A stretch of DNA of 64,000 bases from assembly GCA_950295325.1 (NCBI GenBank), contig OX485804.1:14756001-14820000 (forward strand). Reading direction: 5' to 3'. The notes below the pieces were generated by a model. It saw nothing but the letters and a program-made list of their open reading frames with translations. It was not told the DNA's origin and made no database searches. Made by a program: the position numbers and the translations under genes. Source of the stretch: Polytrichum commune (lineage: Eukaryota; Streptophyta; Polytrichopsida; Polytrichales; Polytrichaceae). Of this stretch, positions 15,094 to 53,377 are shown in pieces (the stretch's first letter is position 1; each line of letters starts with the position of its first letter).

Positions 15094-15107
15094 GGGTTTA
15101 AAAACCC
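15094..15107 (+). promoter_or_regulatory. TATA-like element of LTR-A
   Basis: GGGTTTAAAAACCC, itself near-palindromic, followed by a CT-rich stretch (CTCTCTCTCTTTCTC) that resembles a plant initiator region. A likely polyadenylation signal AATAAAA lies near 15279. Both suggest a promoter and an R region here. Inference from composition and position; same site in LTR2 at +30243. Confidence 0.4.
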
Positions 15108-16439
15108 CTCCTTCCACCTTGTAGCTCTCTCTCTTTCTCTAGTTTTTGGGCGAAGCCCTGCTTCAATGTAGTTAGGAAAAAATCCTTTAGCATGTATTCT
15201 CAATGGTCTAAAAGAAAGGCTTGAGAACCTCCTCTACTCTCTCTCTCCTAGTTAGGTTGTATGTTTATTAACACACCAATAAAATTATTCCTTCTTTTGT
15301 AGAGGTAGGTTGGATGGTAGAGTTTTGAGTAGAGGCATTATAGACCTCATCTGCCAATGCCCTGAAGGCTTAGTTCAAAAGCTAGAACAAGATACTTATC
15401 ATTTTTCTCTTAGAGAGATTTCATATAGCTATCCATAGCCGTTTCCCATTTGTGATTTGGTTGAGATGACAATTAGTTATGGATTTTCAAAGATGGAGTA
15501 GAAAAACTGGGTGGTCTTGTGGGTAGCGGCTGCTGGATCAGACCTGCGAGCCCAATAGGAATTTTAATTCCAAGAAATTATATTTTTCCCAAGTAGAACT
15601 TTTGTGTAGCTTTCCAAAATGGCTTAGAACATTTGATTTGAGCATGAATTGAATTAGATATGAATTGTGCAAGATGGGACACATAGTTTGAGAACTTTTG
15701 GTTGACTGCTGCATTACAGAGGACCTGCTGGGTTCACTTCGGCTTACCTTTCTAATCACATATTTTTATCAAATACATCTTTTTAATATCTCTCCAGGGT
15801 CATATAGAACGTTTGATTTGACTAAGATTTGAATTAGATATGAATGGTTGAAGGCGAGATACATAGTTTAAGCCTTCTTGATTGACTGCTGTGTTACAAG
15901 GAGTCCGCTGAATTTCTATTAGCTTAACCTGCTGATGTCATAATTTTTTCTAGTTAGAGCTTGTTCATAGCTTTCCAATGGTATAAGGAAAGCCTAGATC
16001 CAAGTAGTAAGGAATGTGCTATGAATTTTTGAAGTTAGAAGGTAGATAGGTGGGTTGGAAGGGTCGGTTGAATCGACCTCACACTTCCAACCCTCATAAC
16101 TTTTGCATTTCTTATCCGATTAGAGTGATTTTTAGATCATTGGAAAAAGATAATTTGGTGCACTAAGTATAAATATTATGCTTAGGATTAAATTACAGGG
16201 CAGAATAACACTTTATATTTTAATTGTTAACTAAGGTACGCTTACTACCAAACTAGTTACAAAGAAGGAGGCAAGGTCGACGCTCGGAAAGTGGAGCAAG
16301 GAAGGAGGTAGCGGCTCGGCCTACATCAAGCCCAAATCAACCGAGGAAAATTGAGGTAAATTAACTAACCTTAAGCCTTCCATTTAGGATCGGAGGGAGC
16401 ACGGCTAAGGTACGCATCTCTAAACCCACTCACCTATCT

Positions 16440-16690
16440 CGTAAGGTCAAGTGGCTTGACCACTTGACCGCCAAGGGAGTACCCAATTCCATTGTTTTCG
16501 GGGCCCTTGGTATGTTTTGTGGTAGTAGCTTCATTTATTAGCAAGTTTCGTGTGTGGTAAGTCGGATTAATCACCGACACGACCACTCTGAATGTTGTTG
16601 GTGGAAAGGTGGGGTTAATGACCCGCGAATCCACTATTATGTTGTTGGCCCCATAGATTGGGAGTAATGGCCCCAATTTATGAAGATTGC
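16440..16690 (+). other. Dense stem-loop cluster in the 3' part of LTR-A
   Basis: In order: GGTCAAGTGG/CCACTTGACC with loop CTTGA (16445-16469); CCAAGGG/CCCTTGG (16471-16510); outer GTGGT/ACCAC with inner GTCGG/CCGAC and loop ATTAATCA (16554-16586); outer GTGGA/TCCAC with internal loop AAG/GAA, inner GTGGG/CCCGC and loop GTTAATGA (16601-16634); outer CATA/TATG with inner TTGGG/CCCAA (16652-16682). Present in all three LTR-A copies. It would lie in the leader of the genomic RNA; a role in packaging, dimerisation or translation is inference. Confidence 0.6.
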
Positions 16691-17398
16691 GCAACAGGTT
16701 GAACCTACAGGTCGCCCGTCACCCTGGTCCCATTGAGTTGCATTTCGTGGTCTATCCAGTGTAAACACATTTAACAATCAAAACATACCAAATAAATCGT
16801 AAACCCTTGTTGGCAAGAGACCCGAGGTAAGGGGTGATGCCTAATATGTTAATGTAGTGAGTTAGGACGTGCAAACAAAAGTAAGTAATTAAGAAGGAAT
16901 TTGTGTGAAGGGTGGGACTTAGGCCAAGTTCCCCCGCTTAGAAAACTAAATAGAACTAAATAAAGAAATAGGAAGAATTGAATGGTCCATCAAATTGTCG
17001 TTATTCCGTTCGTTGAGTTAGGGTGGTATGAGTCACACCCGGTTGGGTGTATCAGAACCATCCCAATTCACAAATTAGGATTGCCTTGGTTTCAAGGCTG
17101 GTGCGTCTGCGCGTAGAATAGGTTGTAGGTTAAGGTTAGAACTAGATATGAAATTGGTTAGTGGAGTTTAAAGCCACACTAGTAAAAAACTAAGGCCTAA
17201 CCTCCGGAGGTACTACGACGCATATTTAATCTCCCTTAAAAATCTAACTACTCACGTTATACACCTATCATCCGGGTTCGGCTTGGGCGCCTGCAAATGC
17301 AGGCCACCTTCACCGAAGGGCTTGTGTGATACTTTTAGGCTCCCTCGAAAGGGGGTGGCCCAAAAGTACCACACAAGCCGAAGCGGATTAGCCTCACC

Positions 17399-19000
17399 AT
17401 GGCTAACACGCTGTTTGGTGCAATGTCCGGAGTCCGGCCGGTGAATTGGGGCCTGATCATCCAGGAGATAGTCGGACGGGCCCTCCCCCACATCGGCCGG
17501 AAACCCTCCTTCCTCTCCCCCTTCATTCTACACCTTTACCAGCACTTTGACTGCATCCTGGCGGAGGAGGAGGACCTGCTAACGATAGCGACGGACGAGG
17601 TCACCTACAAGCTTCTTCCGGAAGCCGGAGACGTCGAGACGGAAACATCCAGCGACCCCATTCTTCCGGAAGCACCTCCCTCGTCGCCCGGAAGCCCGCC
17701 GCCGACTGTCTCGAGGCCACTCTCTCCTCCTCCCTCGCACCATCATCCGGAAGCCGGACCCAGCCGGGAGACCCCATGGCGGAATGTGGACCTATCCGCT
17801 TGGGACTTTCCGGAGAATCCGTTCAAACGGTTCCAGGAGGGCATGGAGGACCTCAAGACCCAATATTACCGACTGGAGCACATCGTCAAGGGGGCGAACC
17901 ATGCTCTGGACGACTGCGGACCCGGAAACATTCTCCGGGAATTGGCAAAGAGGGCGGACCGGAAGGAGCTGGAGCAAGCCAAGACGGAGAACGCCCACCT
18001 CACCGCACAGGTAGCGGCCATGACTCAGGAGCTGAGTCAGAAGAGCGAGGAGATCCGGAAGTACCATGCGGAGCAGGCAGTGCTCTTCAGCCGGATCCGG
18101 GAGCTGGTGGGTCATCCGGCGGAGATCGTGAACAAGGCACATCTCTACGACCGGATGATGGAGTCCGGAGATCCCGTTTCCGCCAGGCAGACCCTCCCCA
18201 TCCTCGTGAAGTATTCACGGACGATGACGGCGGAAATCCAGAGGGTGGTCCCGCCAAGCGGAACACCGCGGAGGGTGCTCTATCCGGGTCTGCCAGGGTC
18301 ACCAACCGGAACCCTCTACGAGGTGGTTGGTGAAGTAGCCCTGGTTCAGAACCCGCCGTCCTCTGCAGGACCCAGCCAGCAGGGAGGCGGCTCTCGGCCT
18401 GGTAGTTCCGGAGGGGCTCCGGAAAGGGTCCGTTCTCCCCAGGTGAGGCAGAAGAGCACCGGGTCGGTCCGATCCGGAAGGGGCCAGTCCCCTGTTCCAC
18501 GGAACTCGGATAGGTCCCGGACTCCGGATAGGGCTAGGACGCCGATCCGGCACCAGACTTCTGATCGGGATGCAACTCCGAGTAGGGGCAAGGCCCCTAT
18601 GACCCACGCCTCGCCATCGTCTCCACGGGACTGCCAAGTGGTGAGTCCATTTCCTCCGCCACCCTCAAGGGCGGCCTCCAACAGGGATCCGCGGACGGCT
18701 TCACTCTCGGGCGGACGGAATCCCGAGCAGGGCACCGGAAGCGATCCTTCTCCAGTCCGAAGCATCCGGATGGGAACAGCTTCCGGAAACCCAGGGACAG
18801 TCTCCGGGACACCAGGGACCGCTACCCCACGAACCGAGAGGGCAGCGGATTCGGAGGACGAGGTTGCTCCGTCTCCGAACATGAGGAGGATGCTCACGCG
18901 GCTGCAGAAGGCGTCGCCGGCAGGGGGCTCATCCGCCGTCAGCGGGTTAGGGAGCCACTCAAAGGAGGGATCGGCTCCTAAGAAGCACCGGTCTTCTTAG
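17399..19000 (+). CDS. Element B protein, C-terminal ~533 residues (plant mobile-domain/Transposase_32-like, coiled coil, S/R/P-rich tail)
   Basis: The visible frame starts at MANTLFGAMSGVRPVNWG, but in intact context it is internal: in B1 the frame runs through from an upstream segment ending LPILNPDK. The PVNWGLIIQEIV...SPFILHLYQHFDC pattern resembles the 'putative plant transposon protein' (Transposase_32) and plant mobile domains. Residues ~40-65 are acidic, ~70-130 Pro/Ser-rich; ~175-240 form a heptad-like coiled coil (KELEQAKTENAHLTAQVAAM); the tail to ~510 is rich in Ser, Arg and Pro. It stops at 19000. The 5' part of this gene copy is at 56248-56689 (minus), separated by LTR insertion and inversion. 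Relative to B1 it lacks three codons (KDL region). Probably a gag-like or DNA-binding structural protein; no catalytic motif seen. Confidence 0.6.
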   Translation: MANTLFGAMSGVRPVNWGLIIQEIVGRALPHIGRKPSFLSPFILHLYQHFDCILAEEEDLLTIATDEVTYKLLPEAGDVETETSSDPILPEAPPSSPGSPPPTVSRPLSPPPSHHHPEAGPSRETPWRNVDLSAWDFPENPFKRFQEGMEDLKTQYYRLEHIVKGANHALDDCGPGNILRELAKRADRKELEQAKTENAHLTAQVAAMTQELSQKSEEIRKYHAEQAVLFSRIRELVGHPAEIVNKAHLYDRMMESGDPVSARQTLPILVKYSRTMTAEIQRVVPPSGTPRRVLYPGLPGSPTGTLYEVVGEVALVQNPPSSAGPSQQGGGSRPGSSGGAPERVRSPQVRQKSTGSVRSGRGQSPVPRNSDRSRTPDRARTPIRHQTSDRDATPSRGKAPMTHASPSSPRDCQVVSPFPPPPSRAASNRDPRTASLSGGRNPEQGTGSDPSPVRSIRMGTASGNPGTVSGTPGTATPRTERAADSEDEVAPSPNMRRMLTRLQKASPAGGSSAVSGLGSHSKEGSAPKKHRSS

Positions 19001-19168
19001 TTAGGGGAGTAGCTAGAATAGTTAGACAGAATAGAGGTAGGCAGGTAGGACTTAGGAGTTTTCGAAGACGATTAATAAAACTTTCCCTTGGTAAGTGTCA
19101 GCGGAAAACCCGGATCTGGATTCGGGAAATCCGGGAGACCGGGTGTAGTTAGGGTTTTTTTTCTTGAG

Positions 19169-19193
19169 CGGCGGCCACTTGGGCCGCCGCCTT
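19169..19193. other. GC-rich hairpin in element B 3' region
   Basis: Stem GGCGGCC/GGCCGCC with a short ACTTG loop inside a longer GC-rich inverted repeat. Conserved in B1 at about 36451-36473. Lies ~170 bp after the stop codon, before an AATAAATG polyadenylation-like site near 19288. A 3' processing or RNA-stability structure is possible. Confidence 0.5.
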
Positions 19194-19439
19194 CAGTTTA
19201 GGGATTTTTGAGCCTCTACTTAAGGCTGAATAAGGAGCTTGAGAAGGGTTCCTTCTCAATTGTTGTATTGCGATTACTCCTATTCTGAATAAATGTCTTT
19301 GCTTCTCACTCCTTGACTTCTCTTTATTGTTGTTTGTGTGAATGATCCGGAGATCGTTAGTGGAAGAGAGAGAGAGCATGAGGGATAGGAGTTCCGGATA
19401 GGACATGAGAGAGGAGACCCAGATCAGATCCGGTTATCG

Positions 19440-19930
19440 CCTTGTAGATCCTCTCTGAGTGTAGTGGGAAGGAAACCTCACTAATCCGGTAGGTTGGGTA
19501 ACGTCTAGGTGGGATAGCCGCTGGGAAGATTGGGTGAGATCCGGAAGGGATCCGGACTTACGCCAATCTGATCTTCTGAAGAGGTCCCACCGTCCTTAGA
19601 CGGACCTATCCGGATTAGTGGTACGGATCGCCCAGTTAGCTCAGATTGAGTAGAATCCAAGGTAGAGGTAGCCGAACCGATCCGTCGGACGGAGAAGGAG
19701 AGGTCCGGATCAGTAAGGATTCCGGATTGGAGGCCACCTCCGGAGTGCAGTAGGAAGAGATCCTCATTGTTCCGAATGCCTGGGTAACGTCCATGTGAGA
19801 TAGCCGTCGTTAGGACTGGGCAAGATCCGGAAGGTGCCGGACTTACGCCATCCGACCTTCTGAAGAGGTCTCACAGTCTTTGGACGGGGTAATCCGGAAA
19901 GTGGTACGGGTCACCTACTCATCCCGTCGA
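19440..19930. repeat. Degenerate internal duplication in element B 3' region (~290-bp period)
   Basis: 19453-19640 and 19745-19925 share GGGTAACGTC, GATAGCCG, CTTACGCCA, CTTCTGAAGAGGTC and GTGGTACGG in the same order. The same pair is partly present in B1 (36740-37075), so the duplication is old and part of the element. Confidence 0.6.
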
Positions 19931-20424
19931 GTTAGATCTCCGGTCGGAATCCGGACTCCTCTGGCCACTATGGTCCCAAGAAACAATCCAGATCTCTCTG
20001 CGTGACCTGCCAGGACGGACCTGATCAATCCGGATTGGTTGTGAGGGAGTTTCCGGATTCTAACCTTATCAAGGACGTCTTCACCGGAAGAAACCACTTA
20101 TTCTAGAGGGTAGACGTAAAGGGGTGGGTAAGTATTATAAAGAGGACCTAGAAATAACATCCGGAGAGGCACACTCCGGAAAAAGGCTAAGAATGTCCCC
20201 AAAGACCAAATATCCGGAAATTTGGCTAAGGAAGAGGAAATAAGCAGGTACGGAGAGTTTTAGACCTCCTACACTTCACAGAATCCCTGGACGATACTAG
20301 GGTCATCCGGACAACCCAGATTTGGCACTTAAAACCGCCAATCCGGATCTTTTGGTGTTCGCGTGTTCCCACAGAGGAAATTAAATCGAGTGAAAGACAA
20401 TTATGAATCATGAAGGGGATTTAC

Positions 20425-22530
20425 CAGTTCCATGAAACCACCCCATTGAAGGTAGCGGAAGTGCCAGAAAGCAAGCCATAGCTGGAGGTGCTTGAGACTG
20501 TCCTCACTTGTACAATTCGATGATGCCCACCAAGCCTTGATAGCTAGGTACCTAGTCTCCGCCTCTGCCATAGAGGACGCATTGCGATATTGAAGGCAAA
20601 GGTGTCTATGTTGGTCTTGTAACTCATGCTTTATGTAGGATTTCGTATGTTTCTCGAGCGACTGTTTCCAATGGAAAAAACAAGTGCGCTCACGGCCCTC
20701 CATAGGAACTTTGGGATCTCCTGAACCATACACAATGCGCACAACATTCCAATTGGTTTGCGCACTGTCCGCCATGAAGCCAATAAAGTTAGGATGCGGG
20801 ATACCGTGGCGGGCCATGACATGGTTGAGGTTCTGCCAGAAGAGCACTTGGGCATCCTTATCCTCCGATTGGAAATCACAACATGAAATGGTCATGACCC
20901 GTTGATAAGTCCCATCGTAGACATGAGCGGCCATGGTGGTCCACCCTTTGACACGCTTGACGTGATCGGACATAATCCAGGCGTTCTCAAGGTCCCCACC
21001 CGGTTGCATCCGACGAACCAAATCCACCCCGCTTCCAGGACCAACCTCAGACATCTTGAAGACGAACACCTTGTCGGCATCGTCACCTTGTCCTGGGAAT
21101 TGGTTCCGTTGGACGTAGGCCCAATTGCTAACGCCTCGGAGCTTTGCGATGCCATCCATAACACCGAACCTCCGCAAAAATTTGAAAGAGGTAACCTTAG
21201 ATCGAAGGTTTGGGGAATTCAACCCTCTACAGCTCTCAAACACAGTGTCGAGCTCTGTTAAGGAGAGGAGACGGTGTTTCTCACTATTTTCAGAAAGGAG
21301 GAACTCACCAACAATGTCCTTGCTGGCTTCAAGGACGATCTTGTTGTACGTGGCCTGAGGCGTACGCTCAACGTGCTCCTCGATAAGAGCATTGATGCGC
21401 TTCCGACTGTCTCTGCAGTCCCCAACCTTCACTGGATGTTGATGGTTTCCGATATGAATGCAGGCTCTTTGGGAGAAATTCTTCCCATGGACGTAGAAAA
21501 TCTTCGCCTCGCAAAATGCAATGCATTTGGGAGGTTGTTTGCAGATCTTGCACACAAGAGTAGATCCGGATGGCACAATGCCAGAGAGAGGGAAAGGCTG
21601 AGTAGTGAAACCATCAAATTCCGTGTCGTTGACATGAGAGATACGATGGGCGCGTTGAAGGAAATCACAACAAGTGTTTTGGCATTGGAGATGGCCAACA
21701 CAGGTAGAGGAACGAAATAGAAGGCCAACGTCGTTTGTAATGTTGGTGGTCTGAGTCTTCGTCCAAACATGGCCATCATATTGCTTGTCCATGCCGTCCA
21801 TGGACCTGGCCCTGGAAAGAGATGAAGAGACTTCTGGTGCAGGGAGGACAAATAACTGGGTACCATCGAAACGAGGGGGGAGGTGATTAACCTCTTGGAT
21901 TTTGATCTTATCGTAATCTATTTTCTTGAGGACGCTTTTACTACCGGGTATAGAACCTAGACGACGAAGACATTGAACAATAGGTGGAGGAGGTTTGGAC
22001 GTAGACGGTACGGAAGGAGATAAAGGAACATAGCGAGAAGGTGAAGGTGTTACAAAGGAATCAGAGGGAAACAAAGGAGGGGAATCATGAACATCAGCCT
22101 TCCTCATAGATACATCTTCAATCGAAGAATCAGACAAGTCTACAACATTGTCTATGTCAGGCTCGGTCTTGACACTTACTACCGGAGGTGTGCTAAAGTC
22201 ACCAGTGGAAGATCGAAGAGGAGCATGGAGTTCTGTTGACACTCCCATCTAAGAAGCTGGCCAACCAATAACCCTATACTTTCCAGGGCCAAGCTCCCAC
22301 ACTACATTGCCATTGTCAGTTGCCTTGGAGGATTCATGGAAGGAATGAACGAGCAATCCAGTATCAGGATTGAAGATCTCACGATCTACCCATATTGTAT
22401 TAAGTTGAAGAGAGAACCTAATGCTAAGATGAAGCTCCGAGACAACAGCAATACCCTGTGCACCAATGGGGAAGAGAATAGGGACATCGTTGGCATTGGA
22501 ACGAAGTTCGGCCATTGAGCTGGAAGCCAT
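20425..22530 (-). CDS. MULE transposase, 5' exon(s) (zinc finger and first two catalytic Asp)
   Basis: ATG at 22530 (MASSSMAELRSNAND), frame open to 20425 except for TAG at 22251-22249, directly followed by ATG; a TTCTTAG acceptor at that point may mean a small intron instead. Contents: Ser/Pro-rich region; a Cys/His cluster (CQNTCCDF, CKICKQPP, HIGNHQHP; WRKY/GCM-like zinc finger of MULEs); then the DDE core with HVYDGTY (D at ~20915) and FMADSAQ (D at ~20768) and CFFHWKQSLEKH. The exon ends at ATGGAACTG before GTAAAT. The third acidic residue and SWIM finger are on the plus strand at 57391-58848, in matching phase. In the undisturbed order both pieces are one gene with element B2 in the intron (TSD GAGGA). 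The protein cuts and joins MULE ends. Confidence 0.75.
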
Positions 22531-22832
22531 GAAGGCAAAAAAACATAAACGTAAATGAACAAAGATGCAAAGATTTATAAGGAAGAAGAATGGTGAAGAC
22601 AAACGTTGTGATGTCACCATGTGCATCACCGAAGGAACAGATGTTGAGGAACTAATGTATATAAAAAAGGAGTAGGGGGAGGATGCCAAAAAAGGAAAAC
22701 AAGGGACGGCTGCCAAAAAGAGGGAAACCCTAACCCTGAAGCACTGGCAATATAAAGAACAATACAAGCAAAGGAACGAGTTATTATGTGAGTGCGATGC
22801 CCTAATAGAAGAGTATAGGAGAGAGACGATTA
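22531..22832. promoter_or_regulatory. Putative bidirectional promoter region of the MULE
   Basis: About 300 bp separate the divergent starts of the MULE transposase (22530, minus) and the first exon of the ParB-like/methyltransferase gene (22833 or 22854, plus). AT-rich stretches such as GTATATAAAAAAG near 22657 fit a minus- or plus-strand TATA box. Shared regulation of transposase and cargo is inference. Confidence 0.35.
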
Positions 22833-25800
22833 TTGGGACGCCGGGACGCACACATGAAGGAACCAGGAAATAGTCAAGTCTCCACAGCCGATCCTGGAAG
22901 GAAGAGGAAGAAAAGAAAGGGAGGGACGAGTTTTAGCAATTCAAAGCAGAGGCGACAGAGAGAACTTAGGAAGAAGGAGCAATCTTGTACACAGGGAAGT
23001 GAACCACCAACAAATTTGAGCAAGACGGGGGGAGAGGCAGAGACAGGGACGTCTAGCAGGAACGAGGAATTGGAACGGATAGAGGAAGAACGGGAGCAGA
23101 GTGGATCGCGCGAACCATCGATGGGAGAGAGCAAGCATCGAAGTGATTCGGATTCAAGCGAATCTGAGGAGGAGATAAAAGAGGACTCAATTGGCACAGT
23201 AAGTTTGGGTTTAGCGTATTACGCACTAGGCTCATATATACATTTAGGATATTTACAGGATGGAATTTGATATTGAGTTATCTAATGTGATTCTTAACGA
23301 CCAACATGTGAAATATTGGAAGTTCTTATTTTGTTTAAGTTGGTTAGAGGGGAATATAGAACCAAACCCTCTCGGAACCGAGAGGGTCAAATATTATGCA
23401 CCACGAATAGGCTATAAGCTAAGCACGAAGTTGTGCGGGGCCGCCACCTCCCAAACATGGCACATAGGACATAGGCTTTCGGCCCATACCCTTTTGGGGT
23501 GAGGTACATAGGCCAAAGTATCCCGATTCCTCTAGCTCCTAGGAACCATCCACCACACCAAGGAACCCTTGAGTCTAACCTAGATTAGTCTTCGGAGGCG
23601 CCTCCACTATATGCCGGCCGAAGCAAGGAGGAGCGCATTCGTGAGAGGTTGGAAGTTCGGGATTCTCAGGTGGATGTCTACTTGTGATATTCTGAATGTT
23701 GATTTCTCAAGACAGGAATCTGAAATGTAGATATGGAGTCCATATAGGTAGTTTTGATTTTCAAAAGTTGATAATATGGTTAGGATAGTTAGACAGGGAC
23801 ACCCTCTCGGTTCCGAGAGGGTGGAGAAATGTGGAAATTTGAGGCTTATGACTAGAATCTGATTTGTAATTAATGGGACCATATAGGTAGTTTTGATTTT
23901 CAAGAGTTGAAAATATGGTTAGGATAGTTAGACTAGGACACCCTCTCGGTTCCGAGAGGGTGGAGAAATGTGGACTTTGGAGGCTCCTGACTAGAATCTG
24001 AAATGTGGATTAAGGGCCCATATAGGTAGTTTTGATTTTCAAAAGTTGAAAATATGGTTAGGATAGTTAGACTGGGACACCCTCTCGGTTCCGAGAGGGT
24101 GGAGAAATGTGGAAATCTGAGGCCCTTCACTAGAATCTGAAATGTGCATTAAGGGCCCATATAGGTAGTTTTGATTTTCATATGGTCAATATATGGTAAG
24201 CTTAGTTAGACTGGGACACCCTCTCGGTTCCGAGAGGGTGATGAAATGTGGAAATTTGAGGCTTATGACTAGAATCTGATTTGTGGATAATGGGACCATA
24301 TAGGTAGTTTTGATTTTCAAAAGTTGAAAATATGGTTAGGATAGTTAGACTGGGACACCCTCTCGGTTCCGAGAGGGTGGAGAAATGTGGAAATCTGAGG
24401 CCCTTCACTAGAATCTGAAATGTGGATTAAGGGCCCATATAGGTAGTTTTGATTTTCATATGGTCAATATATGGTAAGGTTAGTTAGACTGGGACACCCT
24501 CTCGGTTTCGAGAGGGTGATGAAATGTGGAATTTTTAGGCTCATGACTAGAATCTGATTTGTGGATATGTGGCCAATTTAGGATGTATTTATTTTCATAT
24601 GGTCAATATATGGTCATTATAGTAGGAAGGGGACACCCTCTCGGTTCCGAGAGGGTGGAGAAATGTGGACTTTTTAGGCTCATGACTAGAATCTGATTTG
24701 TGGATAATGTGACCATATAGGTAGTTTTGATTTTCAAAAGTTAAAAACATGGTTAAGATAGTTAGACTGGGACACCCTCTCGGTTCCGAGAGGGTGGAGA
24801 AATGTGGACATTTGAGGCTTATGACTAGAATCTGATTTGTGGATAATGGGACCATATAGGTAGTTTTGATTTTCAAAAGTTGAAAATATGGTTAGGATAG
24901 TAAGACTGGGACACCCTCTCGGTTCCGAGAGGGTGGAGAAATGTGGAAATTTGAGGCTTATGACTAGAATCTGATTTGTAATTAATGGGACCATATAGGT
25001 AGTTTTGATTTTCAAGAGTTGAAAATATGGTTAGGATAGTTAGACTAGGACACCCTCTCGGTTCCGAGAGGGTGGAGAAATGTGGACTTTGGAGGCTCCT
25101 GACTAGAATCTGAAATGTGGATTAAGGGCCCATATAGGTAGTTTTGATTTTGAAAAGTTGAAAATATGGTTAGGATAGTTAGACTGGGACACCCTCTCGG
25201 TTCCGAGAGGGTGGAGAAATGTGGAAATCTGAGGCCCTTCACTAGAATCTGAAATGTGGATTAAGGGCCCATATAGGTAGTTTTGATTTTCATATGGTCA
25301 ATATATGGTAAGCTTAGTTAGACTGGGACACCCTCTCGGTTCCGAGAGGGTGATGAAATGTGGAAATTTGAGGCTTATGACTAGAATCTGATTTGTGGAT
25401 AATGGGACCATATAGGTAGTTTTGATTTTCAAAAGTTGAAAATATGGTTAGGATAGTTAGACTGGGACACCCTCTCGGTTCCGAGAGGGTGGAGAAATGT
25501 GGAAATCTGAGGCCCTTCACTAGAATCTGAAATGTGGATTAAGGGCCCATATAGGTAGTTTTGATTTTCATATGGTCAATATATGGTAAGGTTAGTTAGA
25601 CTGGGACACCCTCTCGGTTCCGAGAGGGTGGAGAAATGTGGACATTTGAGGCTTATGACTAGAATCTGATTTGTGGATAATGGGACCATATAGGTAGTTT
25701 TGATTTTCAAAAGTTGAAAATATGGTTAGGATAGTAAGACTGGGACACCCTCTCGGTTCCGAGAGGGTGGAGAAATGTGGAAATTTGAGGCTTATGACTA

Positions 25801-28800
25801 GAATCTGATTTGTAATTAATGGGACCATATAGGTAGTTTTGATTTTCAAAAGTCGAAAATATGGTTAGGATAGTTAGACTAGGACACCCTCTCGGTTCCG
25901 AGAGGGTGGAGAAATGTGGACTTTGGAGGCTCATGACTAGAATCTGAAATGTGGATTAAGGGCCCATATATGTAGTTTTGATTTTCATAATGTCAAAATA
26001 TGGTCATTATAGTAGGACAGAGACACCCTCTCGGTTCCGAGAGGGTGGAGAAATGTGGAAATTTGAGGCCCTTCACTAGAATCTGATTTGTGGATAATGG
26101 TCCCATATAGGTAGTTTTGATTTTCAAAAGTTGAAAATATGGTTAGGATAGTTAGAGTGGGACACCCTCTCGGTTCCGAGAGGGTGGAGAAATGTGGACA
26201 TTTGAGGCTTATGACTAGAATCTGATTTGTAATTAATGGGACCATATAGGTAGTTTTGATTTTCAAAAGTTGAAAATATGGTTAGGATAGTTAGACTAGG
26301 ACACCCTCTCGGTTCCGAGAGGGTGTAGAAATGTTGAAATCTGAGGCCCTTCACTAGAATCTGATTTGTGGATAACGGGCCCATATAGGTAGTTTTGATT
26401 TTCATAATGTCAAAATATGGTCAGTATAGTAGGACAGAGGCACCCTCTCGGTTCCGAGAGGGTGGAGAAATGTGGAAATTTGAGGCCCTTCATTAGAATG
26501 TGATTTGTGGATAACGGGCCCATATAGGTAGTTTTGAATTTCATAATGTCAAAATATGGTCATTATAGTAGGGCAGGGACACCCTCTCGGTTCCGAGAGG
26601 GTGGAGAAATGTGGACTTTGGAGGCTCATGACTAGAATCTGAAATGTGGATTAAGGGCCCATATAGGTAGTTTTGATTTTCAAAAGTTGAAAATATGGTT
26701 AGGATAGTTAGACTGGGACACCCTCTCGGAACCGAGAGGGTGGAGAAATGTGGAAATCTGAGGCCCTTCACTAGAATCTGAAATGTGGATTAAGGGCCCA
26801 TATAGGTAGTTTTGATTTTCATATGGTCAATATATGGTAAGGTTAGTTAGACTGGGACACCCTCTCGGTTTCGAGAGGGTGATGAAATGTGGAATTTTTA
26901 GGCTCATGACTAGAATCTGATTTGTGGATATGTGGCCAATTTAGGATGTATTTATTTTCATATGGTCAATATATGGTCATTATAGTAGGAAGGGGACACC
27001 CTCTCGGTTCCGAGAGGGTGGAGAAATGTGGACTTTTTAGGCTCATGGCTAGAATGTGAAATGTGGATAATGCGCCAATATAGGTAGTTTTGATTTTCAT
27101 TAGTTCAGACTTTGGTCATTATAGTAGGACATGGTCACCCTCTCGGTTCCGAGAGGGTGTTGAAATGTGGAAATTTTAGGCTCATGACTAGAATCTGATT
27201 TGTGGATAATGGGCCCATATAGTTAGTTTTGAATTAGTTAGACTGCGTGTATGTCCTCTCGGTTCCTAGAGGGGGAGACATGTGGAAATTTGAGGCCGAA
27301 CACTAGAATCTTATATGTGGTTATATAGCCTTTAAAGGTATTTCTGATTTCTGAAAGTTGAAAATATGGTCTGGTTTGTTAGATTGGGTCACCCTCTCGG
27401 TTCCGAGAGGCTGGAGAATTGTGGATTTCTAGGCTCATCACAAGAATCATATATGTGGTTTAAGGTTACTTTAGTAGGACAGGACACCCTATCGGTTCCG
27501 AGATGGTGGAGAAATGGTGTTTATATGGGCTCTTCACTCTATTCTTATTTCAGATTTTCGGATTCAATAGGCTAGGTTTGAAGTGTATGGATTATTTGTA
27601 TGTGTATGGAGTGCGTTGTATAAGGTTAAAGGGTGCATTTCTAAAAGGACTGGGGCATCATCTCGATGTATTTTGTGCATACAGGCATCGCAGGCTTTGG
27701 CCCTTACTGTGGCGCGTGTCTAATACATGGCGGATGGGCATATTCTATTGTCGCCTCGTGAAGATTGCCATAGGGCACTGGATGACATCTCACAGGGAGA
27801 GGTGTTTGATTCGTTGAAATTCTGTTGTATTTTTGTTTGCCTCTGCTTCTTGTTTGTTTCGTCTTATAGTTTTTTTCTGATGTTTCCCTCCTCTTCTCTT
27901 GTAGATTGATGTTCCGCTTGTTTCCGACTGCATTCGACCTCTTGATGAGGAGAATCCAGATGAAGCCGAGCTCAAGGTTCGGAGATCGCAGAAGCAAGAC
28001 TCTAACACCGTGATTCAGCGGGTGCGATTCAAGCCTCTTGGGAAGTCTCATTTCTCTATTCCATTGTGTTGCTTGCGGAGTCTTCCTCTTGTTCGGCCAA
28101 TCAACAACGTTGATGTTTCTCGTTTGGAGAATGAGTTCGTCATGGGATACCGTGATGGTGACCGCGCTTTGTACGTCTCTCTAGGAAACAACCTCGATGA
28201 GGTCCTTCATGTCTCCGATGACGTCAAGTCCTCCTGGAGTCCATTATGGCAAGAGGCCAATGCAGAGTTTGATGCGATTCTCGAAAGAGACCCCGACCTT
28301 GCTAACTTTGTTGGCAAAATGTTCTACGTGTGGGAGGGGAACCATCGGTTGACAGCTTGGTGGAGGCACATCAACAAGCATCACCCTTTGGACAAAGATT
28401 GGCATATATGGGCTGATTGTATTTTGGTGGATCCAAGAAATTGCACCGCCCTCTTCCTTAATGCTATGAATGACATCAACTGGTGAGTTCAACATTTAAT
28501 GTTGCTGATATTCTCTTTTGTTTGTTCTCATTTTTCCCTCTAACATTTTGTTTGTTATAGGTCCACGGAGCATGACCATGTTAAGGATAACCTCCCCGCC
28601 AAGTTACTTCGCATTCGCACGTTTGGAAAGATGAGGCTAGAGGAGTTCAAAGACCTCCTTTCCGTTTCGGACTACAAGATGTGTGAGTCCAAGATGGAGA
28701 AGACTCCTACTTGGTATCCCCTGACATTAGATGTCTTTGTCAAATTCTTATACAAGGTAAAGTTTGTTTAAACTTTCCTTGACTTTCCTTCTCCCATGTT

Positions 28801-31800
28801 TATGTGGGTTCCTTATCCTTCTTTGTGTTTGTTTCAGAGAGAGATATCCAACGCGGCTGATACGGCTGCGAGGTTATACCGTGAGGCCACTCCCGAGGCT
28901 CTCCGATCTTCGACAGAAATTTGGGATATTATGTCAAAAGCCCAGGATAGGTTGATCAAAAGCATTCGTTCTCGGAACTTTGAGAAGTTCATTTCTGTTG
29001 CCCACAAGGACAACGGGGATGATTTCTTCAACGAGGTGTCTCTCTTATCCTTGTGTTTTCATTTATTCTTTCATTCTCATTTACATCATGTCGTGCTTGA
29101 TATCTCTTTCTTACTTATCTCTATTCTTACTTCATATCTATGTGGCAGATTGACCGTCATTTCTCCACCTTCCTCGTCCCTGATATGACAATCGAAAAAC
29201 TTCAAAAGGTGGCTACCGCACATGTGGATGCCCATTTCAAGGCCAAGTGGCTTCGTTGGTGGAACTCCCCTGCCGATGTCAAGGAAAAGAATAGATTTCC
29301 GTCGTCTCTCCCTCTTAGGGAGAAAGTCCTCGAAAACTGGCTCAACAAAGCTTCTTTCTGGGCGCAGGTGCAACTCTTGTTTTTTTCCTCTTTCTATTAT
29401 TTGAAATCTTCATACCAAGGACTAGGACACCCTCTCGGTTCCGAGAGGGTGGAGAAATGTGGATATCTTAGCCTCAAGACTATAATATGAAATGTGGATA
29501 TTGAGCCAATATAGGTACTTTAGATTTTCAAAAGTTGAAAACATGGTCATTGTAGAAGGACTAGGACACCCTCTCGGTTCCGAGAGGGTGGAGAAATGTG
29601 GAAATCTCAGGCTCAAGAATAGATTCTGACTTGTGGATAATGGGCCCCTATAGGTAGTTTTGATTTTCAAAAGTTCAAAATATGGTTAGGTTAGTTATTC
29701 TGGGACACCCTCTCGGAACCGAGAGGGTGGAGAAATATGGAAATATTAGGCTCATGTCTAGAATCTGATTTTTGGATAATGGGCCCATATAGGTAGTTCT
29801 GATTTTTACAAGTTCAAAATATGGTTAGGTTAGTTAGACTGGGACACCCTCTCGGAAATTAATGGCTCATGACTAAAATATGGTTTGTGCTTATTTAGCC
29901 AATATAGGTAATTCTGGTTTTTAAAAGATGAAAATATGGTGAAAATGGTAGGACAGGGACACCCTCTCGGTTCCGAGAGGGTGGACAAATGTGGAAATTT
30001 TAGGCTCATGACTAGAATTTGATTTGTGGATAATGGGACCATATAGGTAGTTTAGATTTTCAAAAGTTGAAAATATGGTTCGGATAGTTAGACTGGGACA
30101 CCCTCTCGTTTCCGAGAGGGTGGAGAAATGTGGAAATTTGAGGCCATTCACTAGAATCTGATTTGTGGATAATTGGCCCATATAGGTAGTTTTGATTTTT
30201 AAATGTTTAAAATATGGTCATTATAGTAGGACAGGGACACCCTCTCGGTTCCGAGAGGGTGGAGAAATGTGGAAATTTTGTGTTCATGACTAAAATCTGA
30301 TTTGTGGAAAATGGGCCCATATAGGTAGTTTTGGTTTTCCAAAGTTGAAATTGTGGTTAGGATAGTTAGACAGGGACACCCGAGAGGGTGTAGAGGTGTG
30401 GAAATTAATGGCTCATGACTAGAATCTGGTTGGTGATTATTTAGCCAATATATGTAATTCTGATTTTCAAAAGTTCAAAATATGGTGAAAATAGTAGGAC
30501 AGGGACACCCTCTCGGTTCCGAGAGGGTTGAGAAATGTGGAAATCTTAGGCTCGAGAGTAGAATCTGACTTGTGCATATTGAGCCAATATATGTAATTCT
30601 TATTTTCAGAACTCGAAAATATGGTCATTTTTTATTTTAGTGTTTTCCGAAATTTGGATTTGGGGTTCCCATGACTAGAATCTGATATGTGGTTATGAAG
30701 CCAATATCGGTATTTTTGGTTTTCAAAACTTTAAAATATGGTCAGTCTAGTAGGACGGGACACCCTCTCGGTTCCGACCGGGTGGATAAATGTATATATT
30801 TGAGGCTCAATACTAGAATCTGATTTGTGCTTCTTGAGCCAATAAGGGAATTTCAAGTTTTGATACTAAGGTTATTTTGGTATTAGTGGGTGCCTAGATG
30901 TGGAATTTGGGTTCTCAAGACTAGAATCTGTTATGTGGATATTGAGTTCATATAGGTAATTCTGATTTTCAAAAGTTATGGTCATATAGATAATGGGCCC
31001 ATTTAGGTAGTGTTCATTTTGAAAAGTTCAAAATATGGTTAGGTAGTTAGACTGGGACACCCTCTTGGTTCCGAGAGGGTGGAGAGATGTGGAAATTAAT
31101 GGCTCATGACTACAATCTGTTTTTGCTTATTTAGCCCATATAGGTAATTCTGATTTTCAAAATTTGAGAAAATGGTCATTATAGTAGGACCGGGACACCC
31201 TCTCGGTTCCGAGAGGGTGGAGAAATGTATGTTTTGAGGCTCAAGACTAGAATCTGATTTGTGCTTATTTAGCTAATAAGGGAATTTCAGATTTTGAGAA
31301 TATGTCACTGTGGTCATTTTGGGTGAGAACTTGAAAATATGGTCTGATTTCCCGGTCCAGTTTTCTAATGTGCATAAGTGATGCTAATATGTGGTGCTCA
31401 TATGTGGATTTATTTGGCTCGTCACTAGAATCTGATATCAGGTTATTCAGCTAATATGTTTATTTCTTGTTTGGAAATATAGAATGTTTGACTGGGACAC
31501 CCTCTCGGTATGAGTGGGACACCCTCTCGGTCTTTTTGTCATGTCTAAGGTTTTTTTTATGTGTCTAGAGTCTAAGTTCATGTTTGTAGGTTATTGAGTT
31601 GTTCTTTTCTTACTATTTTCCTTTTCTGTCATAGTTGGAGAAGGGGGTTGAGGCTGAGATTGCTTCATTTGAGAATGTTTGTTCCGTTGAAATCGATTGG
31701 AGTTCCACGGAAGATATTTTTCAACCGGGAGATTATGTTGAGCATTGGAGGCTGATTCTTTGGGACAAGGCATTTTTGGTTTATTTTGACGATAAGGGAG

Positions 31801-33930
31801 ATCTAAAATTTGTCAAAGGCCTTGATCTCATGGATTTTAGGGACGGCCCCATATCAATCAAACGCGTCGCTTACCGGTAATATTCTGAGTTTTCTTTGAG
31901 TACATGTTGTTTTTGTTTCATTTCCTTTTCCCCACCGTCTTTGTTTCTCATGTTTTTCATTTTTCAGGTTCATTCACCGTGAGCTCGTTGTGAAGAATGC
32001 ATTGCCTTTTTCGTGCTTGCCAACTTTTCTTTTACATTGGGTCGATGTCAACTCCGATCTTTGTGTTTTTACGCCCAATCAAGTTGCCAAGTTTCCGCAG
32101 TCTCATTTGTAAGCTGGGGGATGGTACTTGGATTGTTCTGGAGGATTTGTGCATGCGGAAGAAAAGCCTCTTCTTACTAGCCTTGTGCGTAGTGCTCCCG
32201 AGGTGAACATTGTCCCGGATGAGGAGCTCGACATCGTTGAGCTTCCTCCTCCACCGCCCAAGGCACCCAAGGCAAAGGGCAGAGGTAAGAATACCGGCAC
32301 TCAATTAACTCGGTCCGCCTCAAAGACCCCCGTTCAGCCACCCACCTTACTACAGAGTCCACCTAGCACTCCCTCCGTTGCTCCATCAGCTGCCCCCTCT
32401 ATCACTCCCTCCGCATGTCGGCCACCAACTGTTGCTACTCCTTATCACAGTGGCACTTCTCTTCTCTCCTTGCCTCGCAAGAGGAAGGCCGCCCTCTTGG
32501 ATACGAGTGCCACCTCTTCGGATTCACCTACCACGCTTTCCCTCATCGAAAATGTGGACATGGTACAATTCATGCTCGATTGCGACCTTGCAGGAGGTCC
32601 CCTCCCGGCATATACGCGCATCCAAAAATTCATTGCCAAGGTTTGTATGTTTTTTATTGGCATTCATCAAACTCCTTTCCATTTGGTTTGCGTTTTTTTT
32701 TCCTTCTTCATTTTTTCTCATGGATTTTTCATTGCAGGCCGGGGAAGGTCGTTCCCATGTGAACACCTCCTCTACACATCACAAGGGACTGGATTTACTC
32801 TTCGCGGACATTCCCGAAAATTTGCCGGTGCCCAACATCTCCACGGATGTTCCTGATTGGAACAAGCTCTATGACTCTTACTATGACTGTCTTTTTGCTT
32901 TTGCAAAATCTAACCTCTATGATCATGGCATCCTTGTTATTTTCCATTGTGCGAGTGCAAGTGTTTCTAGGCTTATTTTCGATTGGGCTCACACTTACGA
33001 CTTCTACATCGCCGAAGATTGGTTCGGTATGGCTGATTTGGACCTCCAATCTCCGATGGACCCCTCTGGAGTGGTAAGCAACTATCCCTCTCCTAGTCCA
33101 TTTTTTTTTTTTTTTTTTCATTTCACTTCTTCCGATTCTTATGGAATCGTTTTCATTTTTTCAGACTCGTAAATTCAGTATCAAGGTTCTTGTTTGTGTT
33201 AACTTCGTTCTGAAAGTGCGACCGGAGGCCGCCAAGGAGTATGGTTACTACCTCCAGCGAGATGGATGGTTGAATGCTGTCACTGATGAGAAGAGCCAGA
33301 CGATGCGCAGTGATGGGATACCCTGGAGAGGTGCTCGCGAGAAGCATCAAGTTTTCTTCTCTATCCTTTTTGCTACTCTCACAGATAAGAATGATGTTAT
33401 TATAGACTGGCATTGTGGTGTAGGTGGTTCAATTACAGCGTGTCGCTCCATTGAGCGGCATATTGTGGCCCTTGAGAGTGACCCAGTGATTTTCAATGCG
33501 ATCCTACTCCCCATGCGTGAAAACCAACCTTCGCAACCCTCCCGCTCAAATGCCCCACCGTCCACCTCTATGTTTGATCCGCCTAAGAAGATGACCAAAC
33601 GAGCATTCGGTTTTCTTTGTGCGTAAGTTTTCTTTCTATGTTTTGTCATGTTTGCCTTCTAGTGATTTTCTCATCTTCGTGTGTCATCTTGTTTCTAATC
33701 TTATTGTTTTTTGGTTCAGAGTGCCAAGGGAGAACGCATGTATGAGTTCGAGTCCTTCCAAGACATTTGAGCTCCCTTGCTATGCGGCTGGGCTTCCCAA
33801 TCTTTTGGCGGAAGCTCCGTCTCCACCTCCCAGTCGCATCCGACCTTTCAACAAACTAGTAGAGGAGTATTTAGACGTAGAGGTGGAGGAGGGCGAGGAT
33901 AGTGATAGACATGGTAGTCCTAGTTCTTGA
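22833..33930 (+). CDS. ParB-like domain + beta-class DNA methyltransferase-like protein, 10 exons, MULE cargo
   Basis: Exons (GT-AG, phases agree): 22833-23198, 27905-28482, 28561-28756, 28838-29035, 29149-29367, 31635-31876, 31968-32640, 32738-33073, 33165-33622, 33720-33930; about 1158 codons. Exon 1 (basic, RKRKKRKGG, then Ser/Glu-rich) is joined by inference across a 4.7-kb intron. Residues ~165-300: PLVRPINNVDVSRLENEF and later VWEGNHRLTAWW, the pattern of ParB/Srx-like domains (which have a D/E-G-x-HR motif). Middle: SSTEDIFQPGDYVEHWRLIL. Residues ~845-1050: LLFADIPENL (motif IV position), GILVIFHC, then VIIDWHCGVGGSITACRSIE and IVALESDPVIFNA (motif I), in the order IV to I of beta-class N4-C/N6-A methylases. 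Motif IV DPPY is DIPE, so activity is doubtful. One in-frame TAA at 32110-32112. ParB-methylase fusions are known in bacteria and phages; here the gene is intron-rich and transposon-borne. Confidence 0.65.
23690..27530. repeat. 139-bp palindromic satellite, array 1 (~27 units), in intron 1 of the ParB-like/methylase gene
   Basis: Exact 139-bp period (for example 23940, 24079, 24218; 26998 is 23 periods after 23801). Each unit carries an inverted repeat CACCCTCTCGG / CCGAGAGGGTG with a two-base centre, then GGAGAAATGTGG. Higher-order structure: 23933-24408 recurs at +1112 bp (8 units) and 24476-24690 recurs at +2363 bp (17 units). A lone palindrome lies at 23367-23390, before the array. Units at the right edge (27230-27530) decay. 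Stop-free minus-strand frames here are an effect of the repeat. Confidence 0.9.
27531..27904. other. Unique tail of intron 1
   Basis: Non-repetitive, T-rich toward the 3' end (TTCTCTTGTAG acceptor at 27894-27904). No further exon convincingly recognised. Confidence 0.4.
29405..31530. repeat. 139-bp palindromic satellite, array 2 (~13 diverged units), in intron 5 of the same gene
   Basis: Same unit and palindrome as array 1 but more diverged; several units are shortened or have half palindromes (29848, 30377, 31498, 31518). It fills the intron between exons at 29149-29367 and 31635-31876. The two arrays share orientation and consensus. Confidence 0.85.
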
Positions 33931-34490
33931 CTACGCCTCGGACCTCCATTTTGTTTATATTGATTTTACTTTATAAGTTTATTTCTTGAATTTTTATGTG
34001 GCTTTTGCAAACCTTATTCAATCCCTCATTGAAGTTCGTTAGTGTTTGATTTCAATTCTTTAGATAGGTTCGGGTGGACAGGTTGAGTATACTTTGAAGG
34101 TTGTCTTCTTTAGTTGTACTTGAGAGATGGTAAGGTTGTGAGTGACTTTGAATGGTTTGAATGTTTGTGTTCAACTTTAACTCTTGGCCACATTCCATAC
34201 CGCTTTAATGTTTGTGTTAAGCTTCAATTGATGACGTAAGCCCTAATTTAATATAAACGTATTCGAAACCTATACTATAAGATGTTTGATAACAAACACT
34301 ATCTTCCACGCCTATAGGTTCGGTTCTTATTTACACGGGAATGGGGTGCCTTTCCGACAAATTGAAGACAAACTATCACTAAAATCCACGGAAATAGGCA
34401 CGACTTCTCCTATAATTACCCAACAAATTTGAAAATCTCCGCTCTCCGCTCTCCGCTCTCTGAGCTATGCTCGCATACTTCAGTTTCCCT
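33931..34490. other. MULE terminal region
   Basis: Downstream of the methylase gene stop; AT-rich, then CCACGGAAATAGG and repeated CCGCTCTCCGCTCTC near 34440, ending CAGTTTCCCT at 34490. The matching arrangement at 59920-60112 (CACGGAAATAGG, CTCTCCGCTCTCC) supports it as an inverted terminus. Confidence 0.6.
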
Positions 34491-34499
34491 CCTCGGGGG

Positions 34500-37542: not shown

Positions 37543-37818
37543 CTGGTGCGTCTGCGCGTAGAATAGGTTGTAGGTTAAGGTTAGAACTAGATATGAAATT
37601 GGTTAGTGGAATTTAAAGCCACACTAGTAAAAAACTAAGGCCTAACCTCCGGAGGTACTACGACGCATATTTAATCTCCCTTAAAAATCTAACTACTCAC
37701 GTTATACACCTATCATCCGGGTTCGGCTTGGGCGCCTGCAAATGCAGGCCACCTTCACGGAAGGGCTTGTGTGATACTTTTAGGCTCCCTCGAAAGGGGG
37801 TGGCCCAAAAGTACCACA
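37543..37818 (+). mobile_element. LTR-A 5' LTR remnant (3' 276 bp) of gypsy element A
   Basis: Matches 17098-17373 of LTR1 with one or two changes (AATTT for AGTTT; CACGG for CACCG) and ends TACCACA directly before the primer-binding site. The first ~2.57 kb of this LTR are missing. Confidence 0.8.
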
Positions 37819-37840: not shown

Positions 37841-37956
37841 GGTGGATGCCCCTGCCATGCTCGAATGATATTTCTTTGAGCACTTATACGTTTAGACTAA
37901 GAGAAGAAGAGTTTAGTCCAATATAAATTAGTCATACGTCATGGGCCACTTGTGCT

Positions 37957-39643
37957 ATGGTTAGTACTAGGGGACGATCGTACGACACCCCAACAACAAC
38001 AACCGCATTTGCATCGGAGGCAACACCAGGTAAGAGGTCGAAGAACGAACCACCAAAACCCGGAAAGACTAAGGAAAATAAATATCAAGGTCTAGGTCCA
38101 GAGTCCGAGCGCGAGAGGGAGAAATCCCCCACCTCACAAAGTCCGGTTAGGGTGGCACGACCCCAATTCATGGCGAATCCTTTGGATGCAATGATGGCTC
38201 CTAGAGGGCCTCCCATTGTAATGCCACAAGCATTAGCGCCAAGGGCGATGCCGAGTTATTTTCCGAAGTTCGGTGGCCTCCCGCATGAGGATCCTTCAAC
38301 CCACATTGAACGATATATTGAGGTAATGTTGGCCAACGTGATAGCCGAAGACACGTACAAACTCGTTTGGTTTTCTAGTACGCTAGAGGGTATAGCGTAT
38401 GAGTGGTACCGATCCCACGATGAGGGGACATTTAGGGACTGGCGAGCATTGCAGACGGCATTCCTTAGACAATTTAGACCGGAAATGGGCCAACAAAGCG
38501 CACTCGTGGCGTTAACGAACATGCGGCAAGGCCCATCCAAGGGTATTACATCATACATCCGACGGTTCGAGACGGTGGTAACTCGTTATGTAGGAACCCT
38601 TCTCACAAATGACACGATTAAATTCTACTTCATACAAGGGTTCAACAAACAAGGTACAATCCGAGAAATTCTTAACTCCAACCCTCAGGATTTGGAAGAA
38701 GCTAAAGCCGAGGCTAGGAGGATCGAAGGTGTAGACAAACAAAATGAGCGGATGTGGAATTGCACTATTGCACCTGTGCCAGCCTTCCTACCCACAACCT
38801 ACATTCCTCCCGAGCAGAGTAAGCCTCCTCAGCTGGAGCCATCCCGACCGGATGCATACGCAGTCCACCGAGCGGCCCCGGTTCCTTTGGCTACGAGGCC
38901 ACCCCCTGAGCTCTTAGCACTCCCTAGCCCTCCGAGCCACACCACGATCGAGGAGCTAGAACTTAGAGTTAAGAAGGCCAACGACGAGTTGAGGAGCGAT
39001 GTCATGCAGTCGCTCAAGACCCTCACAGAGCAGCTAACAATGGCAATCACGTCTAGGCCCTTAGCACAACCAGTTCCGCCGGCCTCGGAGGCAGGTAATT
39101 ATGGCACCAACATTTGGTGTCGTAATTGCAACAAACCTGGCCACAGTAATCAATTTTGCACGGAGCCTAGGTTCACAGGTAACCTAGTAGCCCCACCCCC
39201 CCCGTCCACAACAAGGCCACTCCCAGACTCAAGCCCGGAACAACGGTAAAGGAGTTTGTCCCACTTGCGGCAAGGTTCATATTTTGGGGCCAGGTAAGTG
39301 TTGGATCGAGACGGGGGTGGTCTGCAACCATTGTGGGGGTAATCACCCGGTCGATAATTGTCGTAGGATTCTCGCGGAGCGACCCTCCCATTACTCTCAG
39401 CTGAATCAACAACTTCCGGCATTCTTCTATGATAGGAATCAACAGAACCAAGGAGGAATGTCGGTTAATTATCACCAAGGTAACCCTCAAAGCAATGGCC
39501 AACAAAACTACGGTCCACCCAACCACCAAAACCAAGGTAATAGGGGGAACAACTATCAAGGTCCACAAAATTTGTACCCTCAAAACCCCCCAGCCGGTGG
39601 TAGGCAAGCCGACTCGAATTTGGTAGGAATGGTAAGCCAATAG
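37957..39643 (+). CDS. gag: Gag of gypsy element A, with zinc knuckles; one frame change
   Basis: First frame 37957-39249 (ATG, MVSTRGRSYDTPTTTTAF). Residues ~95-260 form the retrotransposon gag domain (FPKFGGLPHEDPSTHIERYI, AYEWYRSHDEGTFRDW, RFETVVTRYVG). A CCHC knuckle CRNCNKPGHSNQFC lies at about 39118-39160. After the C-run at 39191-39200 the plausible coding passes to the +1 frame, which holds two further Cys/His knuckles (CPTCGKVH..., then CNHCGGNHPVDNC near 39328-39366) and a Gln/Asn-rich stretch to 39643. So the original gag seems one frame, broken by a single-base change in a homopolymer. A TAG at 39641-39643 then separates it from the pol frame in the same phase. Structural protein for particles and RNA packaging. 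Confidence 0.8.
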
Positions 39644-39655
39644 TATGTCCCTCAG

Positions 39656-53365: not shown

Positions 53366-53377
53366 TGTGGGAACACG
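53366..53377 (-). mobile_element. Element B1 3' terminus (12 bp)
   Basis: TGTGGGAACACG on plus, the reverse complement of the B2 terminus CGTGTTCCCACA at 20362-20373. Preceded by GCATT (53361-53365), which recurs at 61064-61068 beyond the B1 5' end. Confidence 0.7.

Follow-up and report, generated by a model that had tools for sequence, protein, structure and literature searches.

A ParB-like and methylase-like cargo gene with intronic palindrome arrays in a MULE-like transposon family of the moss Polytrichum commune

Introduction

Why would a plant transposon carry an intron-rich gene whose product recalls both bacterial ParB proteins and DNA methylases, and what could that protein do for the element? 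The question is raised by a 64,000-nucleotide stretch of the Polytrichum commune genome (hereafter the window). The initial annotation, made from the letters alone, described such a gene as the cargo of a Mutator-like element (MULE) and suggested that it may bind or modify DNA. Here we delimit the element, compare it with other copies in the genome, and weigh the possible roles of the gene and of the palindromes that fill two of its introns.

Results

The element lies in two pieces

We searched the Polytrichum commune assembly (407.8 Mb in 64 contigs, seven of which are 42–78 Mb long) and read seven sister copies, c3, c4a, c4b, c5, c6, c7 and d7, which together with the window element make eight copies. 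The gene had been placed between MULE ends at 20374 and 34490 with a matching 9-bp duplication. The duplication, TCCTCGGGG, exists, but it does not flank that interval: the partner of the right-hand copy is at 60114–60122 on the other strand. No duplication of 8–11 bp with at most one mismatch was found at the 20374 and 34490 ends, and wider exact-word scans found none there either. Position 20374 was rejected as a transposon end, since it lies just past a retroelement that has entered the transposase gene. The parts of the element are as follows.

20374–34489, no strand assigned: right-hand main piece of the MULE-like element, with the right terminus ...CAGTTTCCC at 34489
57343–60113, minus strand: displaced left-hand piece of the same element, with the left terminus GGGACGACAC at 60113
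34490–34498, no strand assigned: right copy of the 9-bp target-site duplication TCCTCGGGG, beside the right terminus
60114–60122, minus strand: left copy of TCCTCGGGG, inverted along with the left piece

The sister copies bear out both termini. The right base, 34489, is common to four elements (window, c4b, c5 and c6), each with a different flank, and the c4a and c7 alignments reach as far as 34460. On the left, c4b and c7 extend 2.4–2.8 kb past window position 20373, and the window holds that piece inverted at 57343–60113, where it is 96.6% identical to c4b; in c4b it is contiguous with the sequence from window 20373 onward. Two other copies have 9-bp duplications of their own, GGGGGAATT in c4b and AGCTAATAG around the 12.85-kb element d7 (G000:C7:12698000-12712499).

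The break at 20373/57343 corresponds to an LTR-type retroelement, R2 (TGTGGGA...TTCCCACA), which sits in the transposase gene with a 5-bp duplication, GAGGA, and is itself divided.

17374–20373, plus strand: 3' part of R2, in the transposase gene, ending ...CCCACA, with the duplication GAGGA
56248–57342, minus strand: 5' part of R2 on the inverted side, starting TGTGGGA

Two copies of an LTR, X, at 14533–17373 and, inverted, at 53377–56247, are 98.8% identical and border the inverted stretch, so recombination between them is its likely cause. The order that we infer for window positions 14533–61063 is a nested one. The MULE-like element entered the gag-like frame of a retroelement, R1 (34490 onward plus 60114–61063); R2 then entered the element, with LTR X adjoining the break in R2; and an inversion of about 36 kb between the inverted X copies came last. 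A gag-pol retrotransposon of the gypsy type, whose long pol frame is open, was also noted at 37927–44239, with further parts at 37543–37818 and 44776–47617. Its full 3' LTR is 100% identical to the LTR at 14533–17373, which points to recent activity of this retrotransposon.

The carrier is a non-TIR, MULE-like transposon

The divergent transposase gene proposed beside the cargo gene is present, shared between the two pieces and accompanied by a third open reading frame (ORF).

20401–22530, minus strand: 5' part of the transposase gene, starting MASSSMAEL, with a nonsense TAG at 22249–22251
57343–58845, plus strand: 3' part of the transposase gene, with a SWIM-like CxC...CxH pattern; ORFs 57238–57849 and 57853–58845, with one stop between them
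59013–59498, minus strand: a third, charged ORF of about 155 aa and no known family, intact in c4b and c7

At the position of the TAG, a sense codon is found in four sister copies, and the 3' region of the transposase is an uninterrupted 515-aa ORF in c7. Only 33 residues of the third ORF were matched in d7. MULE/Mutator elements make target-site duplications of 8–11 bp, and those of the window element, c4b and d7 are 9 bp long. No MULE or SWIM family of Pfam matched the transposase parts tested up to an E value of 1. The 9-bp duplications and the SWIM-like pattern in the C-terminus, taken together with this lack of a Pfam match, indicate a divergent MULE or something very near to one. The ends, GGGACGACAC and GGGAAACTGA, have only GGGA in common and thus no long terminal inverted repeats (TIRs), which fits a VANDAL-type non-TIR MULE. 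The carrier is a non-TIR, MULE-like transposon family.

The cargo gene has ten exons and is broken in the window copy

Ten exons with GT-AG borders and fitting phases, as first described, were recovered, with the start codon at 22854 and the gene spanning 22854–33930.

22854–23198, plus strand: exon 1, basic, nuclear-localisation-like; aligned in c3, c4b and c7, and in d7 at 27% identity
27905–28482, plus strand: exon 2, ParB/Srx-like domain with WEGNHR; 172 relatives, AlphaFold and PDB matches
28561–28756, plus strand: exon 3
28838–29035, plus strand: exon 4
29149–29367, plus strand: exon 5
31635–31876, plus strand: exon 6
31968–32640, plus strand: exon 7, proline-rich linker, with an in-frame nonsense TAA at 32110–32112
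32738–33073, plus strand: exon 8, methylase-like motif IV region, LLFADIPEN
33165–33622, plus strand: exon 9, methylase-like motif I region, DWHCGVGGS
33720–33930, plus strand: exon 10, acidic tail and stop

Introns 2–4 and 6–9 are 78–113 bp long; intron 1 (4.7 kb) and intron 5 (2.3 kb) consist mostly of 139-bp tandem repeats. The window copy is broken in both genes, by the TAA at 32110 in the cargo gene (where the relatives P0130 and P0131 have a residue) and by the TAG at 22249 in the transposase gene. None of the eight copies read holds a whole open cargo gene; each is interrupted by a stop, frame break or insert, or lacks a part. This is what would be seen if the gene were a captured host or bacterial gene with no role in the element. 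Against such passive carriage, all ten exons were matched in d7 even though its exon 2 is only 62% identical to that of the window; linkage and selection, described below, also bear on it. Taken singly, the exon-2 frames are mostly open (150 places scored of 1281 candidates).

The whole spliced protein had no match in the protein database at an E value of 0.001; single-exon queries did match, and no relatives were found in IMG/VR. Relatives of about 60% identity (P0055, P0057, P0073 and P0104 among them) are on contigs of 160–770 kb, so that several copies are probably present in one or more other genomes. Exon 9 of d7 and of several relatives is split by an extra intron after DWQCGVG; the window copy is without it.

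Exon 2 encodes a domain of ParB/Srx-like fold

The predicted EGNHR-containing region was borne out in exon 2, for which AlphaFold gave a model with the ParB/Srx fold; one of the five models was confident (81) and the other four scored 47–62. In a Foldseek search of this model against the PDB, none of the 85 matches reached an E value of 0.001, and sulfiredoxin, not ParB, ranked first. Neither ParB nor Srx families of Pfam were among the matches of 54 members up to an E value of 1, and searches for ParB by Pfam or PDB sequence gave no match; the domain is therefore assigned to the ParB/Srx superfamily by fold and not by sequence. Profile similarity had been anticipated for both regions of the protein, and it was obtained for the methylase-like region (see below) but, with Pfam, not for the ParB-like one. 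A Pfam search of the protein found no HTH, and exon 2 matched three phage records at an E value of about 1.

The CTP-binding motifs of ParB are GERR and ENxxR, and GNHR occupies the position of the GERR-type motif. Sulfiredoxin has its catalytic Cys in FGGCHR, where GNHR has an Asn that is invariant in A1. The H or R of GNHR is lost at six of 30 loci. The Arg is replaced by W, Q or C in exon 2 of L012, L024, L033 and L036; these are changes such as CpG decay could give, and they may fit cytosine methylation of these elements.

The methylase-like region has an altered catalytic motif

The reported motif order in exons 8 and 9, DIPE followed by DWHCGVGGS, was confirmed. Motif IV before motif I is the order of beta-class N6-adenine/N4-cytosine methylases, and hhalign found profile similarity at an E value of 2.6e-9, where shuffled controls failed. 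For this comparison, seven of 81 phage records were used, all of them annotated as methylase or ParB-like, and matches to tail and hypothetical proteins were left out; taken singly, the phage methylases matched the region with a probability of only 9–80%. A profile search of the PDB for a methylase returned one low-complexity match only, and the AlphaFold model of the region (pLDDT 51) was not used.

The canonical catalytic motif, [DNS]PP[YFW], was found in none of the 69 family rows. In the 39 rows where the site could be read by pattern, D[IV]P is followed by E in 35, K in three and A in one. The aromatic residue of the canonical motif stacks on the flipped base. The catalytic motif of this beta-class-methylase-like domain is thus altered throughout the readable family sequences, and because the DPPY-type motif is absent from all 69 relatives, with mostly D-I/V-P-E instead where the site is readable, methylase activity of the cargo protein is doubtful. 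We therefore consider it quite improbable that the protein is an active N6-adenine or N4-cytosine methylase which the ParB-like domain directs to mark the DNA of the element itself: by the family rule, the base-stacking aromatic residue is missing, and the motif reads D[IV]P[EKA] in all 39 readable rows. Motif I and the overall beta-class order are nonetheless retained, exons 8–9 have evolved under purifying selection (dN/dS about 0.2–0.3), and a ParB-methylase fusion does exist in a phage match.

The cargo gene is linked to the transposase gene and under selection

A search of the genome for other copies with the same gene showed that the arrangement is multi-copy. For exon 2 it yielded 1281 candidates, of which 150 were scored; exon 9 gave 1395, again with 150 scored, and the transposase gave 2241, of which 71 were scored (77 matches minus six fragment rows). 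A listed ParB-like exon lies within 25 kb of 46 of the 71 listed transposase places, and the two are head to head in all 46; random placement gave a mean of 1.3 pairs and a maximum of seven in 1000 trials. At 40 kb, 52 of the 71 are paired, 50 of them head to head and two not divergent. Ten of the 25 places unpaired at 25 kb have a listed methylase exon within that distance in the same arrangement, counted against 16 methylase places chosen by eye. In the reverse direction the count is weaker: a listed transposase is found within 25 kb at 46 of the 150 ParB places on the list and not at the other 104, the transposase list being the 71 scored of 2241. The head-to-head pairing, the AlphaFold fold and the profile-profile match together support the original proposal that a ParB-like and methylase-like gene is the cargo of a MULE-like transposon.

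Over 347 non-independent pairs drawn from 30 loci, exon 2 has a median dN/dS of 0.24, and on these sequence comparisons it has evolved under purifying selection. This selection and the 46 head-to-head pairs both disfavour passive cargo, which we regard as very improbable.

The modules of the element have diverged to different degrees. Between the window and c7, dS is 0.03 for the transposase core, 0.28 for exon 2 and 0.15 for exons 8–9; between the window and d7, it is 0.27 for the transposase core, saturated for exon 2 and 0.48 for exons 8–9. These differences indicate either reassortment of cargo and transposase among elements or homogenisation of the transposase. The listed ParB-like places are also unevenly spread, 43 of the 150 falling in a 17.6-Mb stretch (G000:C4, 41.5–59 Mb) that makes up 4% of the genome and is perhaps a sex chromosome or other low-recombination region.

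Introns 1 and 5 hold arrays of a lineage-specific palindrome

The repeats of the two long introns are organised around a perfect palindrome, CACCCTCTCGGTTCCGAGAGGGTG, carried by the 139-bp units.

23740–27232, plus strand: intron 1 array of 139-bp units, most with the palindrome; 24 exact sites in intron 1
29420–31531, plus strand: arrays in intron 5 of 139-bp-type units that also carry this palindrome; seven exact sites in that intron

All 31 occurrences of the core, CCCTCTCGGnnCCGAGAGGG, in the window fall within these two introns, 24 of them in intron 1 and seven in intron 5. Over 23 units, identity is 98.5% in and beside the palindrome columns and 89.9% outside them. Palindrome counts of 25 and seven in introns 1 and 5, against 0.07 and 0 in simulated introns, are an inflated excess that says little, since an array, its sites included, is built of copies of a single unit. 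Genome-wide, 1231 sites lie within one mismatch of the palindrome, against none for the control, a reversed palindrome. The 100 sites listed are grouped in three clusters, of which two surround ParB exons on the list and the third adjoins a listed methylase exon.

Among 30 ParB loci with 1.5-kb flanks, 19 have the window palindrome, ten have a second type, CTCTCGATTCCGAGAG, and one has neither. The second type is limited to one exon-2 clade (in a quick tree without support values, with two near-identical loci), a pattern expected from linkage alone, so that co-evolution of palindrome and protein is not proved by it. A third type, GGCCTCGGATCCGAGGCC, occurs in eight copies in intron 1 of d7 and has CTCGGnnCCGAG in common with the first, and in one lineage a pair of the palindrome is broken. 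The unit that holds one and the same palindrome varies in length across clades (139, about 106 or about 95 bp), with spacers that hardly align; the 20 bases on each side of the palindrome are 43–60% identical between lineages, against about 30% expected. Array spacings (window, L015–L033 and d7) cluster near 95, 106, 127 and 139 bp, close to whole turns of DNA (about 9, 10, 12 and 13), which may place the sites on one face.

Sites that stay fixed while their spacers drift, and different sites where lineages have parted, point to a factor that binds them by sequence, for which the ParB-like protein encoded around the palindromes is the obvious candidate. Bacterial parS sites are likewise palindromic; they are the cognate sites of ParB, whereas those described here are candidate sites in introns. 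The palindromes could instead act as nucleic-acid hairpins, either pre-mRNA stems that aid the splicing of repetitive introns or sources of small RNA, or be bound by the transposase or a host protein. Their location in introns and the ready folding of a 24-nt perfect inverted repeat speak for hairpins, and the sites do not themselves name their binder. However, a protein site of dyad symmetry would account at least equally well for a two-base centre that can be TT or AA and for arms that vary from lineage to lineage, and all 31 sites of the window element are in introns 1 and 5 of the cargo gene; we consider these alternatives unlikely. Of the two activities first suggested for the cargo protein, DNA binding gains in likelihood from the lineage-specific arrays, and DNA modification is weakened by the altered catalytic motif.

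Discussion

ParB-methylase genes of this kind are already known from algal transposons. The accessory protein of Sola1-1_Ec32 from the brown alga Ectocarpus is encoded by such a gene, and a DNA-marking methylase role has been suggested for it (PMC12477816, which cites Iyer 2011 and Petroll 2025 for green and red algae). Going by the passages that describe the algal genes, they and the gene in the window both join the two domains in one transposon gene opposite the transposase. The Ectocarpus carrier belongs to the Sola1 superfamily, whereas the carrier here is MULE-like with 9-bp duplications, and the passages on Sola1 in PMC12477816 make no mention of palindrome arrays.

A second parallel is VANDAL21/Hiun of Arabidopsis, a non-TIR MULE with extra genes that include VANC (PMC5735166, PMC10398659, PMC6446971). 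VANC binds motifs that are tandemly repeated in the introns and upstream regions of VANDAL genes and that vary from one family to another (PMC5735166, PMC10398659). By these descriptions, VANDAL21/Hiun and the moss family are alike in being non-TIR, in carrying extra genes and in having accessory-gene introns with tandem repeats that hold family-specific short motifs, which have changed from one related family to the next. The VANC motif, YAGTATTAY, is not palindromic, unlike the sites here, and the passages describing VANC do not call it ParB-like or methylase-like, whereas the cargo protein is both. Anti-silencing has been shown for VANC and is proposed here by analogy.

Among prokaryotic systems, the ParB/Srx fold is in common with bacterial ParB-parS and KorB/Noc proteins (PDB 7bm8, 6sdk, 7ol9, 8qa9), from which the moss protein differs in having GNHR for the GERR-type motif, no HTH match in Pfam, a eukaryotic transposon as carrier and a methylase-like fusion. 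The Ruminococcus phage NatCom_23091 protein (XTK83491.1) has, as here, an annotated ParB-like domain before a beta-class methylase, but its gene is intronless with a normal DPPY motif, in contrast to ten exons and D[IV]P[EKA]. DNA-modification cargo is also known in retrotransposons with C5 cytosine methylases (PMC5890265) and fungal DNA transposons with TET (PMC12730594), in both cases, as described there, from enzyme families other than that found here. The palindrome arrays above all appear to be new, along with the MULE-like carrier, its abundance, its mosaic history and the conservation of a non-canonical motif; none of these was found in the open-access literature searched.

We favour, at somewhat less than an even chance, the reading that this is an accessory gene of a non-TIR MULE-like family that may combine ParB/parS-like self-recognition with VANC-like anti-silencing. 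The ParB-like protein would recognise the palindromes of its own family, as bacterial ParB recognises parS, and would spread or load at the arrays on copies of its own element. Once bound, it would counteract silencing and keep these copies active, as VANC does for Arabidopsis VANDAL elements, and the methylase-like domain would be a SAM-binding or DNA-engaging module, not a working N6-adenine or N4-cytosine methylase. A bolder version, which we hold to be somewhat unlikely, is that a complete partition-style system resides in a eukaryotic transposon: a ParB-like clamp, with parS-like palindromes in the introns of the clamp gene, palindrome and protein changing together by lineage, the cargo module being swapped between transposase backbones, and the dead methylase serving as a SAM-sensing or chromatin-facing part. 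If this were true, the palindrome type would allow a copy to distinguish its own kind from other elements.

The escape of transposons from silencing is still an open question, for which VANC is a worked plant case. In the moss family, a fold relative of bacterial chromosome-segregation proteins and of methylases sits where VANC does, beside the same kind of repeat array, and the palindromes give its candidate binding sites letter by letter. A general rule could thereby be put to the test, namely that transposon self-recognition may evolve by pairing a binder with intronic repeats.
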